IMG/VR virus record: IMGVR_UViG_3300009082_000069
Location: 1 to 21,075 of that record
Source: a virus
DNA length: 21,075 nt
Strand: one strand, 5' to 3'
This document shows, one piece after another, positions 4,047 to 11,441 of the stretch; the stretch's first letter is position 1, and the number at the start of each line of letters is the position of its first letter. The notes beneath the pieces were generated by a model that was given only the letters and a program-made list of their open reading frames with translations, was not told the DNA's origin and did no database searches. The position numbers were made by a program, and so were the translations under genes.

Positions 4047-5798
4047 TTAGTATCCAGTAATTCTTGAAACTATTCGCTTACGAACTTTCTTCCTTTCATA
4101 TTCATCCTCATCATCCTGGTGCTCCGGAGACTTCGGACGTATTCCTCTATATATAGCAATTTTCAAAGCATCCAACAAGTCCATCCTACGCGACGGAAAC
4201 ACTCGAAGCTCTTCCATCAGCTTACTTCGAATCGACTTCTTTACATACAACTGACCTTTGTCCAAAACAGGTTGAAGGATGTTTCGAATAGTTGTTTCTT
4301 TCTCTCCAAGAGCCGGGATACCTAGAAAGTTTAGGTACTTCCCACGCATCTGTTCTTCTTTTCGGATAATACTGACGAAGCTCTTGAATCCTCCCTGAGC
4401 TTCAACAAACGTGGCCCGAACCTTAGTTCCGTACTTTTCCTTATACTGGAACAACCAATCAAAAAACTTCGTTGGAAGAACAAATCCCGATTCAACGTCC
4501 ACCAGGTAACGGTTTCCTAAATAGTCAGTCAACACTACTGCAACCGAGGCTCTAGAGTTGGACAACGACGCTTTGGTTGACCCTCCACTAGGGTCCCCCG
4601 CAATTACAAGATCACAGTCTCTAAAATCGATTCTCTCGTAACCATTTGCATCGGAGTATTTGACTATCTCATACGTCTCCTGAATGTCGTTCCACTCTAC
4701 CTCACAATCATGGACCTTGTACCCACCAAAGTCTGACGCACCTGCGGCAATCGGATTATTCGCGTACTGGCTCTGATAGACCCACGGATCAGATTCCAGA
4801 AGGGTGTCCAAAGCCGCAACGGTAAACGAATCTGGATTTATAGAATACTCACTCCCGTCTGCGTTCTGCTGTTTCGCGGGACGATAGTAGGTAACCCATT
4901 CACCATTCGGGTTTACAGGGTATTCAGATACTAACGGGTCCCAATATCCAAGTTGCTCCTTAGTCTCGTGCATCAGTCTCTCATACGGGTCGTCGATCGC
5001 GTACCTAGTTCCAACTACCATAACCCGAGAATACTTCCAACTCACTACCAGGTTCTTCAAGTTACTATATAGCCAATTTCCCATACGAGCCATTTCTGCT
5101 CCAGCCACATGGTCTGCATTAAGCATGTCTTCACCGACGATATCGTCACAGTCAAAGAGGTCTACGTGAATACCCTGAGTCGAACCACCTGCGGTGATAG
5201 CCTGAAGATTCGGTTCCGGGAAGCGTCGAGTTCGATTGTTTAGGATTAACTCGACATTCGACTTATTCTGTTTGCTCCATTCCGGGTACAGAGCTTTATG
5301 AAACTCGTTTAAGGTAAACGTATTTATAGTTGACTGAACAAAAGATAATGCGCGATCATACAGTTGCGACGTACACCCAACACGTAAGTTAGGGTCCCTC
5401 AATAACTCCCAACCGTTCGAGCCATGAGACCAAATAGTAGACTTGAAGCAAGCACGTGGTACTATCCCCGCCGCCTTTATCCCAGGTGTCGTGGCCACTC
5501 GTTGACGAAAGTTACACATATCGACATGAAGATCGGTGTTGAGCAGATTATACGGACCATCCGAACCAGCAATATATTTCAAATAAAACCACAGACTAAC
5601 GAACCCTGCTTCCCGAAGTAGGCTCATGACCTTTTCACTGGTCGCCATATTCTGTGAAGACGCTTCTGTAATAATCTGTCTTAACAGCAGTCCGGGGTCT
5701 TTCTCCTTCGCAAATGTAGGTGCCATCGGGTGAGGACTGAACTCCAGCCCTGGCCATATTTGGGGGGCATTTCCCGAGCTCTCAGGCATCCATCCCAT
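4047..5798 (-). CDS. terL: terminase large subunit (ATPase and nuclease)
   Basis: This is the DNA packaging motor. In the N-terminal ATPase domain PRACFKST (114-121) is a terminase-type Walker A, LFDCDDI (214-220) supplies Walker B, and VVGTRY (261-266) fits the coupling motif. In the C-terminal RNase H-like nuclease, IAGDPSGGS (399-407), FVEAQGG (464-470) and the DLLDALK segment near 555 provide the expected acidic residues. The 583-aa length is typical. It overlaps the end of the preceding gene by 17 nt; the ATG at 5798 has weak ribosome binding, and the fourth codon (ATG at 5789) is an alternative. Residues 10-13 (NAPQ) are encoded by a copy of the 14-bp word. Confidence 0.95.
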   Translation of the reverse strand: MGWMPESSGNAPQIWPGLEFSPHPMAPTFAKEKDPGLLLRQIITEASSQNMATSEKVMSLLREAGFVSLWFYLKYIAGSDGPYNLLNTDLHVDMCNFRQRVATTPGIKAAGIVPRACFKSTIWSHGSNGWELLRDPNLRVGCTSQLYDRALSFVQSTINTFTLNEFHKALYPEWSKQNKSNVELILNNRTRRFPEPNLQAITAGGSTQGIHVDLFDCDDIVGEDMLNADHVAGAEMARMGNWLYSNLKNLVVSWKYSRVMVVGTRYAIDDPYERLMHETKEQLGYWDPLVSEYPVNPNGEWVTYYRPAKQQNADGSEYSINPDSFTVAALDTLLESDPWVYQSQYANNPIAAGASDFGGYKVHDCEVEWNDIQETYEIVKYSDANGYERIDFRDCDLVIAGDPSGGSTKASLSNSRASVAVVLTDYLGNRYLVDVESGFVLPTKFFDWLFQYKEKYGTKVRATFVEAQGGFKSFVSIIRKEEQMRGKYLNFLGIPALGEKETTIRNILQPVLDKGQLYVKKSIRSKLMEELRVFPSRRMDLLDALKIAIYRGIRPKSPEHQDDEDEYERKKVRKRIVSRITGY

Positions 5799-7753: not shown

Positions 7754-8311
7754 TGTATCTAGCATGTATCTAGCATGTATCGGTGCGGATAGATACATAG
7801 ATTGACACTCCCCCGCGTGGAAATGGCCCCTTGAGTATTTGGGGGGCATTTCCGCGGCCTTGAGTCGTTTGTATTCCCCGTTATGACGCCTTTTTCGGCC
7901 CATTACGGCGCTTTCATGGTGTCTTTTATGCTCCCCCGTCCTTCCCACGCTTTTTCTCCATTTTCCCCCCATTTTCTCCCCCGTTGCATCTACTCCAAAA
8001 CCTATTTTCTTATTTTACATTATTTATTTTATATAATTTATTATACATATATATTACTATATATATAGAAAACCTTATAAATCTATGTATCATCCGCTCA
8101 AAAGAATTAAATTAAATTTAACTCTTTACCGTGTAACAATTTAACTTAATTAAATAAATAATTCCCCCGATGCACTAGATACATCGATACATTTAGTCCA
8201 ATTATTGACTCAACCCGAATCTATCTCTTTATCCTTCATACACTTATCTTTTTACCTTCCCCCTTCTCCATTATGATACATACTAGATACAACTAGATAC
8301 AACTAGATACA
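7754..8311. other. AT-rich block flanked by GATACA-core iterons (candidate origin or operator region)
   Basis: This gene-free stretch (7738-8406) holds two iteron clusters. On the left TGTATCTAGCA is repeated at 7754-7764 and 7765-7775, with TGTATC again at 7776. On the right ACTAGATACA is repeated exactly three times at 8282-8311. Further GATACA/TGTATC words occur near 7791, 8086, 8178 and 8276. Left copies mostly point opposite to right copies. Between them, about 7990-8160 is extremely AT-rich with TATATA runs. Iterons around an AT-rich unwinding segment, at the switch between leftward and rightward transcription, fit a replication origin; a repressor-operator array is the alternative. Confidence 0.55.
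7813..7855. repeat. imperfect hairpin using the 14-bp word as its right arm
   Basis: CCGC (7813-7816) and GGAAATG (7819-7825) pair with CATTTCC (7847-7853) and GCGG; CCCC (7827-7830) can pair with the G-run. The right arm contains TTTGGGGGGCATTT at 7838-7851, and the left arm carries an altered version (GGAAATGGCCCC). Intergenic. Confidence 0.6.
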
Positions 8312-8345
8312 TTTCAATACATACGAAAAAATATCCTTTTCCCGA

Positions 8346-8406: not shown

Positions 8407-8910
8407 ATGCCTAAGACGATTAAATCGCATGTGCTTAATCCGACCACGGGAAAGCTAGTGCGCAAGACCGACCCCGTACCAACCCGCAAGAGTCTCCTTC
8501 AATACTCTTGCGCGGGACGCCGTGGTGCTTCCGTAGGTAAAAGCGCCTGGAAGCCCGGCGGGAGCGCCCACAAAACGGGAACCGCGCTCGACTCATGGGG
8601 CCGAGAATACGCTATTGACCTAGTGACGGGAAAGCGCGTTGTCTTTCAGCACCATAGTGTTGAGGTATGGGCCGGACTCAAGGCGACAAAACTTGAAAAA
8701 ACCGTTCGCCGTCTTTACCATAAGGCGGAACACGGCGGATTGACCACGAAAGAAATGGAATCCTTTATCTTGTACTCTCAAGATGAATTGATCCGCGCAA
8801 ACGTTGCGCTTTCCCGTTTAATCGAGAAAGTAGTATTCAATGCGTCAAGGCCACGACCGGACGCGGGGCGAGTCCTTACAAATAGAAGGAAGAAAGCAAT
8901 TTTCGCATAA
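8407..8910 (+). CDS. basic protein of unknown function
   Basis: A 167-aa, strongly basic protein. Residues 1-60 are Lys/Arg/Gly/Ser-rich (KSLLQYSCAGRRGASVGKSA), the middle holds WGREYAIDLVTGKRVVFQHH, and 95-145 look helical (LEKTVRRLYHKAEHGGLTTK); it ends in RRKKAIFA. It has its own strong promoter and AAGGAG. Charge suggests nucleic-acid binding. It lies between the iteron region and the structured RNA, so a role in replication start or in binding that RNA is conceivable but not shown. No family recognised. Confidence 0.8.
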   Translation: MPKTIKSHVLNPTTGKLVRKTDPVPTRKSLLQYSCAGRRGASVGKSAWKPGGSAHKTGTALDSWGREYAIDLVTGKRVVFQHHSVEVWAGLKATKLEKTVRRLYHKAEHGGLTTKEMESFILYSQDELIRANVALSRLIEKVVFNASRPRPDAGRVLTNRRKKAIFA

Positions 8911-8933
8911 TCGGACGGTCCTTTTTCTCAAAA

Positions 8934-9199
8934 ACTTCCCTGAATGAGTCGCTGAAAATTGCGACGAAACGCGGAGATATCCGCGTCGGAAGTAACGTCA
9001 AGACAACGTTCGATCGTAGAACGCTCTTGATCGTGGGCAGAATGATATAGGGATTGAAAGACTATCCGTCAACTATATCAGGAAGCCAGACGAAACCCTA
9101 TGCGCCGATACGGGAACCAAAAGGACGCGGTTTAACCGCTTTTCCCTATCCGCTAGACAAACGTCAACACGAGAAAGAGCGAAAAATCGATCGAATGGG
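8934..9199 (+). ncRNA. structured RNA region upstream of the large RNA (separate RNA or 3' UTR)
   Basis: No gene is visible in 8911-9200 but helices are dense. ACTTCC (8934-8939)/GGAAGT (8988-8993) encloses two hairpins, GTCGC/GCGAC (about 8948-8965) and ACGCGG (8969-8974)/CCGCGT (8981-8986). Next, CAAGA (8999-9003)/TCTTG (9025-9029) encloses CGTTC/GAACG; GATATAG (9044-9050)/CTATATC (9073-9079) encloses GGAT/ATCC (9051-9054, 9064-9067); then GCGGT/ACCGC near 9127-9139. It could be the 3' part of the 8346 transcript or an RNA of its own. Function unknown. Confidence 0.5.
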
Positions 9200-9201
9200 G
9201 A

Positions 9202-9230
9202 TTGACAATCCTTTCAATCCATGAGACAAT
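9202..9230 (+). promoter_or_regulatory. promoter of the large structured RNA
   Basis: TTGACA (9202-9207), 17-nt spacer ending CCATGA, GACAAT (9225-9230), matching the 8346 promoter in both boxes, spacer length and the CCATGAGACAATG segment. The predicted start near 9237 is 4 nt before the first long helix of the RNA at 9241. Confidence 0.75.
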
Positions 9231-9236
9231 GGATTC

Positions 9237-9760
9237 AAGAGTAAAGGAGAACGGGAGCGCAAGAGTGATAAACTTTTCGCGGGACCGTGGAAAATCCTTT
9301 ACCTTACTATAGGTGTTGGGCGAACCAGAGGCCCCCGCGCGTAATGGCGCGTTAGAAAAGGGAGAGCTATTGAACGTTCGCGTCTAGCAATCCTCGGACA
9401 ACTAAAGGTTCTTTAACATGAGCGCGTAGGACGTAGACACCTACATTAAAGCCAAAGAAGTGAACACTTTGGCGTAGCTCTCACCAGTCCAAGGCATGAA
9501 AGCCGGGGAGTACGGGCACTTCAATGGGCGGGAGTAAATCCTAATCATTAGAAGCCGTTGTTCTAGCCGGGCCTTGGATACCGCGATAGGCGGTAACACG
9601 GGGATAGGAAGTAAATACCTATCTTACTGAAAACCAGCAAAAGACGCACGTAGCCTATAGGGGGCCGTGGGAAACGGACAGGACGTTCTTTCCCCTCTAA
9701 CGGCCTCGGCTCGGACCACGTTCCCTAGCCAGCATTTCAGCCAGAAATGCCCCCCAAATA
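9237..9760 (+). ncRNA. large ornate structured noncoding RNA (ROOL/GOLLD-like size class)
   Basis: No protein frame fits here, yet many perfect helices can be drawn: 9241-9248/9295-9302 (8 bp), 9336-9340/9347-9351, 9426-9430/9440-9444, 9451-9457/9467-9473 (7 bp), 9488-9495/9571-9578 (8 bp), 9579-9584/9590-9595, 9603-9608/9618-9623, and 9663-9668/9700-9705 stacked on 9669-9674/9689-9694. CTATAGG at 9307-9313 can pair with CCTATAG at 9654-9660, closing a multibranched core. AGTA and GAA words around 9533-9553 could form a loop-E motif. A promoter ends just upstream. Phage-borne RNAs of several hundred nt near tRNA genes include ROOL and GOLLD; size and context fit, but family identity is not established. 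The 3' end is uncertain and could extend to about 9820. Confidence 0.65.
9732..9758 (+). repeat. hairpin carrying a 14-bp word copy at the 3' end of the structured RNA
   Basis: GCATTTC (about 9732-9738) pairs with GAAATGC (9744-9750) around a 5-nt loop, and AAATGCCCCCCAAA (9745-9758) forms the right arm plus a single-stranded C-run. As at 7813-7855, the left arm copies only the AAATGC half of the word. Confidence 0.65.
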
Positions 9761-9820
9761 ACAGCTACACTGCTCTTCGTTTTCATGTTCCCGCAAGCGA
9801 CGCCAAAAATCGTGGAGTTA

Positions 9821-9907
9821 AGGTTAGGTCAAGGGTATGAGAGGTGAACCGGAAACGGGTGTAGTCTCTCTAGGCCGCAAAGGCAGGTTCAATTCCTGCC
9901 TGACCTA
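9821..9907 (+). other. tRNA-like element without a normal anticodon arm
   Basis: AGGTTAG (9821-9827) pairs with CTGACCT (9900-9906) as a 7-bp acceptor stem, followed by A as discriminator. GCAGG-TTCAATT-CCTGC (9883-9899) is a canonical T arm directly joined to it. A short D-like hairpin (TCA/TGA, loop with GGG) follows the 5' arm. In place of an anticodon arm there is GAGAGGT/GTCTCTC (9839-9845, 9864-9870) holding a GAAA-tetraloop hairpin (CCG-GAAA-CGG). No 7-nt anticodon loop could be fitted. GGAG and the ATG of the next gene follow directly, so it may act as a leader element. A degenerate tRNA or a tmRNA-like fragment are alternatives. Confidence 0.5.
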
Positions 9908-9922
9908 TAAGGAGAGAAACTT

Positions 9923-10142
9923 ATGTTATCGATTGAAGTTAAGCCATCTACAGTAGAAGGGAAATACCCTTGCTTGATGAAGTCTACGGCGGGGAGCATT
10001 GTTTTATTCCAAAAAGGCATCAGTCGGAGTCGTGGTGAAAGAGGGAGCTGATTCCCTCAACTGCCTTGAGTATCCCTCGTATGCTTGGGACATGAAATAT
10101 TCCCAACCATTCTATGGGTCAGTGACTATCGAAAATAAGTAG
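9923..10142 (+). pseudogene. small gene split by a +1 frame change (frameshifted or programmed)
   Basis: AAGGAG lies just upstream of ATG 9923. Frame one gives MLSIEVKPSTVEGKYPCLMK ... IVLFQK and stops at 10051. Just after an A5 run (10011-10015) the +1 frame continues as ASVGVVVKEGADSLNCLEYP ... FYGSVTIENK to the TAG at 10140-10142. Joined, they make a plausible 72-aa protein of alternating strands; the second frame has no start or ribosome binding site of its own. Removing one A restores a single frame. Causes could be a natural inactivating insertion, a base-calling error in the homopolymer, or programmed +1 frameshifting at CAA-AAA-GGC. Family unknown. Confidence 0.65.
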
Positions 10143-11000: not shown

Positions 11001-11061
11001 CACTCCTCGTGTCTCTCCCCTACACGTATGTGTGGGATATTTTCTCTATAGGAGGCCATAC

Positions 11062-11361
11062 ATGGCTCTCACCAAAAACATCGTCGTATCCACTTCCGAG
11101 GCGAAAATCTACGGTCCGACGGACTACTGCGATGCTCTCATCGGTGCTCTGGACGGGAAGAAAATCTTCCGTTCCGACTATCTCGACAAGCTCGAAGCGG
11201 CGATCAAGGCCAAGGACGAGAAGTACGTTAAGACCTTCAAGAAGCTGACTTCGGACAAAATCCACAGTGCCTCCGGTTACGACACGGATCATCCCTTCGT
11301 TACCGCTGAAGGCCGTTCCGGTACGAAATACCGCTCCTGGCGGTATGTCGCGGTGATCTAA
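11062..11361 (+). CDS. 99-aa Lys-rich protein, probably highly expressed
   Basis: The ATG at 11062 is preceded by AGGAGG (7 nt spacing); an earlier frame opening at 11032 has no such site. The protein MALTKNIVVSTSEAKIYGPT... is soluble, with a basic helical centre (LDKLEAAIKAKDEKYVKTFK) and a Tyr/Arg-rich end (KYRSWRYVAVI). Its codons are strongly biased to C- and G-ending forms (AAG, GAC, CTC, ATC, TTC, TCC), unlike its neighbours, which suggests high expression. A strong hairpin spans its stop codon. It is unrecognised. It directly precedes the amidoligase-like gene, so a substrate or partner role there is possible but only inferred. Confidence 0.85.
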   Translation: MALTKNIVVSTSEAKIYGPTDYCDALIGALDGKKIFRSDYLDKLEAAIKAKDEKYVKTFKKLTSDKIHSASGYDTDHPFVTAEGRSGTKYRSWRYVAVI

Positions 11362-11368
11362 TCACCGC
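11350..11368 (+). terminator. strong hairpin across the stop codon of the 99-aa gene
   Basis: GCGGTGAT (11350-11357), loop CTA, ATCACCGC (11361-11368): 8 bp perfect, containing the TAA stop. No T-run follows, so partial termination or protection of the mRNA 3' end is more likely than full termination. Confidence 0.5.
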
Positions 11369-11369
11369 A

Positions 11370-11441
11370 GTGGAGAGTTGCTTAGGCGCAAGTGTGAGAA
11401 CGTTAAGTTACTCATAAGCAGGGTCACTCCTGCCTCTCCAC
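11370..11441 (+). promoter_or_regulatory. cloverleaf-like leader before the amidoligase-like gene
   Basis: GTGGAGAG (11370-11377) pairs with CTCTCCAC (11434-11441). Inside are a D-like arm TTGC-TTAGGC-GCAA (11378-11391), a middle arm TGAGAAC/GTT-CTCA with a GTTAA loop and a bulged A (11395-11414), and a T-like arm GCAGG-GTCACT-CCTGC (11418-11433) joined directly to the closing stem. The order of arms copies a tRNA but the middle loop is not an anticodon loop and the T-like loop has 6 nt. AGGAGG and the ATG at 11453 follow at once, so a translational control element is possible. Confidence 0.5.

Follow-up and report, generated by a model that had tools for sequence, protein, structure and literature searches.

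A predicted early-operon leader RNA with a hammerhead-like ribozyme and a boxA-like motif in a phage

We describe a phage locus in which about 1,000 nt without a protein gene (8911-9922) open the rightward genes and would fold into an elaborate RNA. The window, the whole stretch of DNA analysed here, is a viral record of 21,075 bases; it carries the terminase (4047-5798) and portal genes on the minus strand and an exonuclease gene, Sak4 and a run of small genes on the plus strand. The most economical reading of the locus is the order promoter P1, ORF167, ribozyme, RNA-A, promoter P2, RNA-B with a boxA-like motif, tRNA-like element and next gene, and this predicted anatomy is well supported. 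Our preferred but tentative interpretation is an untranslated early-operon leader in which the ribozyme would trim read-through from the upstream gene and boxA would recruit Nus factors. The RNA appears to be a phage leader of a new type.

The gene-free span runs from the stop codon of ORF167 (8407-8910, plus strand), the first gene of the rightward operon with the Shine-Dalgarno sequence AAAGGAGTAAAG, to an SD-led ORF of 42 aa (9923-10051, plus strand). In the ORF listing, the longest frame within the span has 57 aa, and none of three small ORFs (9054-9224 and 9667-9840 on the plus strand, 9441-9599 on the minus strand) matched a PHROG family. An initial annotation had already called part of this region gene-free; we likewise find no convincing gene, and the borders have to be moved out to 8911 and 9922. 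Protein searches with ORF167, a 640-aa protein and Sak4 found no near kin, and a terminase search of bacterial genomes found no relative.

Two features flank the locus. Upstream, a short tandem repeat (ACTAGATACA) lies at 8280-8315, in the AT-rich DNA that separates the divergent gene blocks, and is possibly an origin or a regulatory site. Downstream, a small gene at 9923-10142 is apparently split by a frame change near 10019, where MLSIEVKP...FQKGI resumes as SVGVVVKEGADSLNCLEYPSYAWDMKYSQPFYGSVTIENK in the next frame; assembly error, decay and programmed frameshift are the alternatives.

The locus has twin promoters on the plus strand. P1 (8346-8374) lies before ORF167 and P2 (9202-9230) has a predicted start at 9237, that of RNA-B; both read TTGACA-17-GACAAT with an extended TG, so that hexamers, spacing and TG are identical. 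The promoter initially proposed at 9202-9230 is thus upheld by its motif and by its twin. A search of viral contigs for the form TTGACA-N12-CATGAGACAAT returned 35 matching contigs and no near relatives of the window. At 30 of the 35 sites no frame is open across the motif, as a promoter would show, which supports TTGACA-N12-CATGAGACAAT as a putative general promoter type. The -10 element of the TEM bla P3 promoter is likewise of the CATGAGACAAT form.

All RNA structures reported here are single-sequence predictions. When the whole window was folded in 500-nt segments, the plus-strand segments starting at 9001 and 8751 were the most over-stable of all, with energy differences of -38 and -37 kcal/mol compared to a mean of -6 (sd 10) over all segments. 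The excess is centred on 8751-9500 and is the strongest in the window. The best-folded element, RNA-A (8994-9200, plus strand), is predicted to form a compact multibranched fold closed by 9007-9016/9187-9196, with z -6.75, none of 200 shuffles as good and a minimum free energy (MFE) structure identical to the centroid. The terminator scan found within it a terminator-like hairpin (9127-9139) followed by TTTT. RNA-B (9237 to about 9732, plus strand) is a structured untranslated leader that begins at the predicted start; the 400 nt after P2 give z -5.4.

For the longer segment 9230-9780 the folding energy is -198.4 kcal/mol (z -4.22), which none of 100 shuffles matched; the MFE structure contains the long-range pairing 9307-9314/9653-9660 of the initial annotation. 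Each half of the region drawn in that annotation reaches only z -2.4 to -2.5 alone, which means that the separate helices it lists cannot be taken as firm. Since the best element lies outside them, the earlier borders were too narrow and cut off the best part of the structure. The broader proposal of a promoter-driven, large, structured non-coding phage RNA is supported by the sequence evidence.

Between ORF167 and RNA-A, we found a type I hammerhead-like ribozyme (8934-8993, plus strand) that had been missed initially and starts 23 nt past the ORF167 stop codon. A sub-threshold Rfam hammerhead match was the lead to it. Its stems follow the type I order: I, ACUUCC/GGAAGU (6 pairs); II, GUCGC/GCGAC (5 pairs); III, ACGCGGA-GAUA-UCCGCGU (7 pairs). 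Against the type I core consensus used (CUGANGA...GAAA...UH), the core reads CUGA-A-UGA with one extra A after A6; GAA follows stem II, GAAA and UC are present, and the predicted cut falls between C8987 and G8988, preceded by UC. A descriptor scan of both strands gave this site as the sole match in the window, and none in 100 shuffled windows. The RF00163 model matches it over its full length (positions 1-45) and with the same ends, at E 0.0035 and 17 bits, below the cut-off of 34 bits. The extra A is the obvious departure from the RF00163 consensus. An insertion after A6 has been described by Perreault and co-workers as a natural hammerhead variant of low activity (PMC3088659); the activity of this probable self-cleaving ribozyme is therefore likely reduced.

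Related phages carry ribozymes in the same place. Among about 95 loci fetched by terminase searches, the hammerhead scan gave five strong matches besides that of the window, and all six hammerheads lie upstream of the terminase on the strand opposite to it, and none elsewhere. The five are canonical, on the minus strand and at a stop codon: one of type I (L045, 8220-8269) and four of type II (L061, 5969-6033; L067, 7109-7168; L069, 7299-7358; L201, 3090-3161). Infernal also detects two of these four type II hammerheads, at about 30 bits and under the 37-bit cut-off. In a further relative (L070, 5722-5783, minus strand), a Twister-P5 ribozyme scoring 47 bits (cut-off 37.6) occupies the same slot directly after a stop codon. 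The starts of all seven ribozymes fall at or close to a stop codon, from 2 nt within it to 23 nt beyond it. The distance to the next gene is 21-128 nt in five of the seven, compared to 929 nt in the window and 700 nt in L070, where the gene-free DNA behind the twister folds strongly as well. Different ribozyme classes therefore occupy one intercistronic slot across related phages, with a very large structured untranslated RNA behind two of them.

Structured leaders also occur in related phages, with no significant sequence in common with the window RNA. In vir526 (BK063670), a near-consensus sigma-70 promoter is followed by an untranslated structured leader (z -5.4) with 463 nt to the first gene, and the structured gene-free leaders of L014, L015 and L062 each have a promoter-like site in front of them, that of L014 near the sigma-70 consensus; other relatives with a good promoter mostly have short leaders only. 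No convincing DNA homologue of the window RNA was found in phages, plasmids or relatives, and the best short match (G023, 33043-33062) was rejected as a hairpin after an ORF near Sak4 rather than the RNA locus. Of ten leader pairs aligned as RNA, one (L070-L062) came near significance and the others fell within shuffles. The recorded host of vir526 belongs to the archaeal Methanomicrobiales, yet its near-consensus sigma-70 promoters (L007, 1318-1346) argue for a bacterial host.

The leaders of vir526 and L135 are 97.6-97.9% identical in the 5' half and the 3' part, whereas the flanking non-coding DNA is 88-90% identical, which indicates purifying selection. Projected on the MFE structure, the same comparison gives no compensatory pairs; four changes affect one side only, and 13 pairs are disrupted or contain gaps. 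By eye, one helix changes from CGCAG/CUGCG in vir526 to CGUAG/CUACG in L135; this single compensatory change lies outside the MFE structure and carries little weight. The octamer UUGAACGU (9370-9377, plus strand) is common to the window, vir526 and L014 at about 138-143 nt from the -10 element, and its equal distance from the promoter could reflect shared ancestry or coincidence. Searching viral contigs for the promoter together with UUGAACGU recovered L014, vir526 and L135 along with many unrelated matches, and we therefore leave it as possibly due to chance.

A k-mer comparison of the leaders yielded GTTCTTT, which pointed to boxA. RNA-B contains a boxA-like GUUCUUUAACA element at 9408-9418 (plus strand; GTTCTTTAACA in the window), likely an anti-termination signal. 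Over 623 kb, both strands included, we counted the form G[CT]TCTTTNANA 14 times: 11 matches are on the operon strand and 3 on the opposite one, each strand contributing 311 kb. In the leaders it occurs four times in 4.9 kb compared to 0.11 expected, an enrichment that is suggestive only, since this 11-nt motif was noticed before it was counted and the leader set was our own choice. The four leaders are those of the window, vir526, L045, where the motif starts 2 nt past the hammerhead, and L070, where it starts 82 nt past the twister; those of L009, L014, L015, L061, L062, L067 and L201 are without it. L069 and L022 have one motif each in nearby gene-free DNA. A TTGACA beside the L045 hammerhead was dropped as a promoter, boxA being the better fit. 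In rrn antitermination complexes boxA is necessary and sufficient (PMC10250234), and a boxA of comparable motif form (GTTCTTTAAAA) sits upstream of a Legionella CRISPR array (PMC7862264).

The resemblance of the locus to ROOL and GOLLD RNAs, raised in the initial annotation, did not survive an Infernal search with the Rfam 15 covariance models: neither family matched the window at E up to 5 or the segment 8911-9940 at E up to 10, nor did either reach gathering scores in 37 related-phage loci. ROOL, GOLLD and every other Rfam family were accordingly rejected as the identity of the RNA, as were a group I or group II intron, a riboswitch, a tmRNA and an intact tRNA (no Rfam match, no tmRNA call). 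The phage context of ROOL is present, with terminase, portal, Sak4 and a tRNA-Arg (11301-11376) in the window. The tRNA-like sequence that had been remarked on nearby does exist (9821-9907, plus strand), with an acceptor and T arm and an aberrant middle. As a tRNA it is weak: it scores 16.1 bits against a cut-off of 29, ARAGORN does not call it, and the fold of 9765-9925 is no better than shuffles (z -0.87). ARAGORN calls only the tRNA-Arg (CCT) in the window, which overlaps the end of an ORF (11032-11361) just ahead of the gene for the 640-aa protein; a relaxed run returned noise only. In a related phage, a comparable tRNA-like sequence (L217, 4552-4639, minus strand) lies between Sak4 and the next gene and scores 23.9 bits with the tRNA-Sec model (cut-off 47).

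In the mechanism that we propose, the phage's rightward (replication) operon opens with this leader locus. Transcripts from P1 would span ORF167 and continue downstream, and the ribozyme 23 nt past its stop codon would cut this read-through RNA, setting the ORF167 message apart from RNA-A. P2, as a second copy of the promoter, would start RNA-B, whose boxA-like sequence would bring NusB and S10 (NusE) to RNA polymerase, a role that boxA has in ribosomal RNA operons. The polymerase so loaded could then pass the structured, untranslated leader and transcribe the following 11 kb of genes, avoiding Rho-dependent termination. Anatomy, promoter twins, over-stable folding, the lack of a match to known large RNA families and the ribozyme slot of the relatives are read from sequence; that the RNA is transcribed, cleaved and bound by Nus factors, and what its fold is for, we infer.

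Other readings can be weighed against this one. RNA-B, or the ribozyme-released 8988-9740, might be a stand-alone ornate RNA that works as an RNA particle, as ROOL and GOLLD do, although unrelated to them. Its size, elaborate fold, phage setting and nearby tRNA-Arg would fit, as would L070, where 700 gene-free nt that fold strongly again lie behind a ribozyme; ROOL and GOLLD, which form cages, are found close to tRNAs in phages (PMC12286853). However, there is no Rfam match, the RNA sits directly ahead of the operon like a leader, and the leaders of the relatives have no conserved sequence whereas the giant RNAs were defined by conserved structure, so we regard such a particle as rather unlikely. 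A more specific version seems more doubtful still: a novel class of large phage RNAs that arise by self-cleavage, in which an exchangeable hammerhead or twister behind the stop codon of the first gene would free the 5' end, and an ornate, boxA-protected RNA of 700-930 nt would act alone in the infected cell. A leader of the early operon that combines a ribozyme with a boxA-like motif fits better.

We rate only marginally below the stand-alone particle, and also as unlikely, a leader that serves processing and protection: ribozyme and tRNA-like element would be cut sites (self-cleavage, RNase P/Z), the helices would shield the early mRNA, and boxA would be there by chance. Ribozymes between genes in seven phages speak for it, together with the sub-threshold tRNA-like elements of the window and L217 and the proposal that clustered hammerheads process phage transcripts (PMC3088659); yet the tRNA-like element is weak, 500-700 nt exceed the needs of protection, and boxA-like motifs are enriched in leaders. 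A riboswitch-like leader, controlling the early genes in response to a signal or to a bound phage protein, would suit the position between promoter and first gene and the compact fold of RNA-A. With no riboswitch match in Rfam, and with RNA-A preceding P2 rather than a gene, we consider it improbable. Finally, chance folding in spacer DNA beside a decayed hammerhead and a degraded tRNA would account for the missing homologue, the core insertion and the weak tRNA-like element, but it would have to produce z values of -6.75 and -4.22 in the most over-stable part of the window and a ribozyme slot common to relatives; that no functional RNA exists here is very improbable.

The leader that we favour has partial counterparts among known systems. 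The put RNA antitermination leaders of HK022 likewise head a phage early operon and act as RNA on the polymerase, but put sites are short hairpin pairs, the like of which was not noticed here. The boxA antitermination leaders of rrn operons, lambda nut and CRISPR arrays resemble the window in having a GUUCUUUAACA-type element near a promoter, in an RNA that is structured and not translated. Unlike them, the window has this arrangement in a phage early operon with an RNA far larger than a nut site, and no boxB or N gene was identified.

Like ROOL, the window RNA is phage-encoded, several hundred nt long and near a tRNA, with an elaborate (here predicted) fold; it differs in its leader position, in the ribozyme upstream and in the lack of a covariance-model match. 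GOLLD is similarly a large phage-encoded RNA, sometimes with a tRNA nearby, but no covariance-model match to it and no counterpart of its conserved 3' region were found. Size, fold and a nearby tRNA are thus insufficient to call a phage RNA ROOL or GOLLD.

The closest parallel for the ribozyme is provided by the phage hammerheads and twisters between genes (PMC3088659; RF00163, RF02276, RF02684), with which it shares three helices, a predicted cleavage site and an intergenic position in a phage operon; its catalytic core corresponds to that of the hammerheads apart from the insertion after A6, a known natural variant. It differs from phage hammerheads in carrying that core insertion and scoring below the Rfam cut-off, and from hammerheads and twisters alike in what lies behind it, roughly 930 nt of structured RNA that is free of genes and has a promoter of its own. 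The presence of a boxA-like motif in leaders of this sort suggests that ribozyme cutting, large phage RNAs and host Nus factors may be connected.
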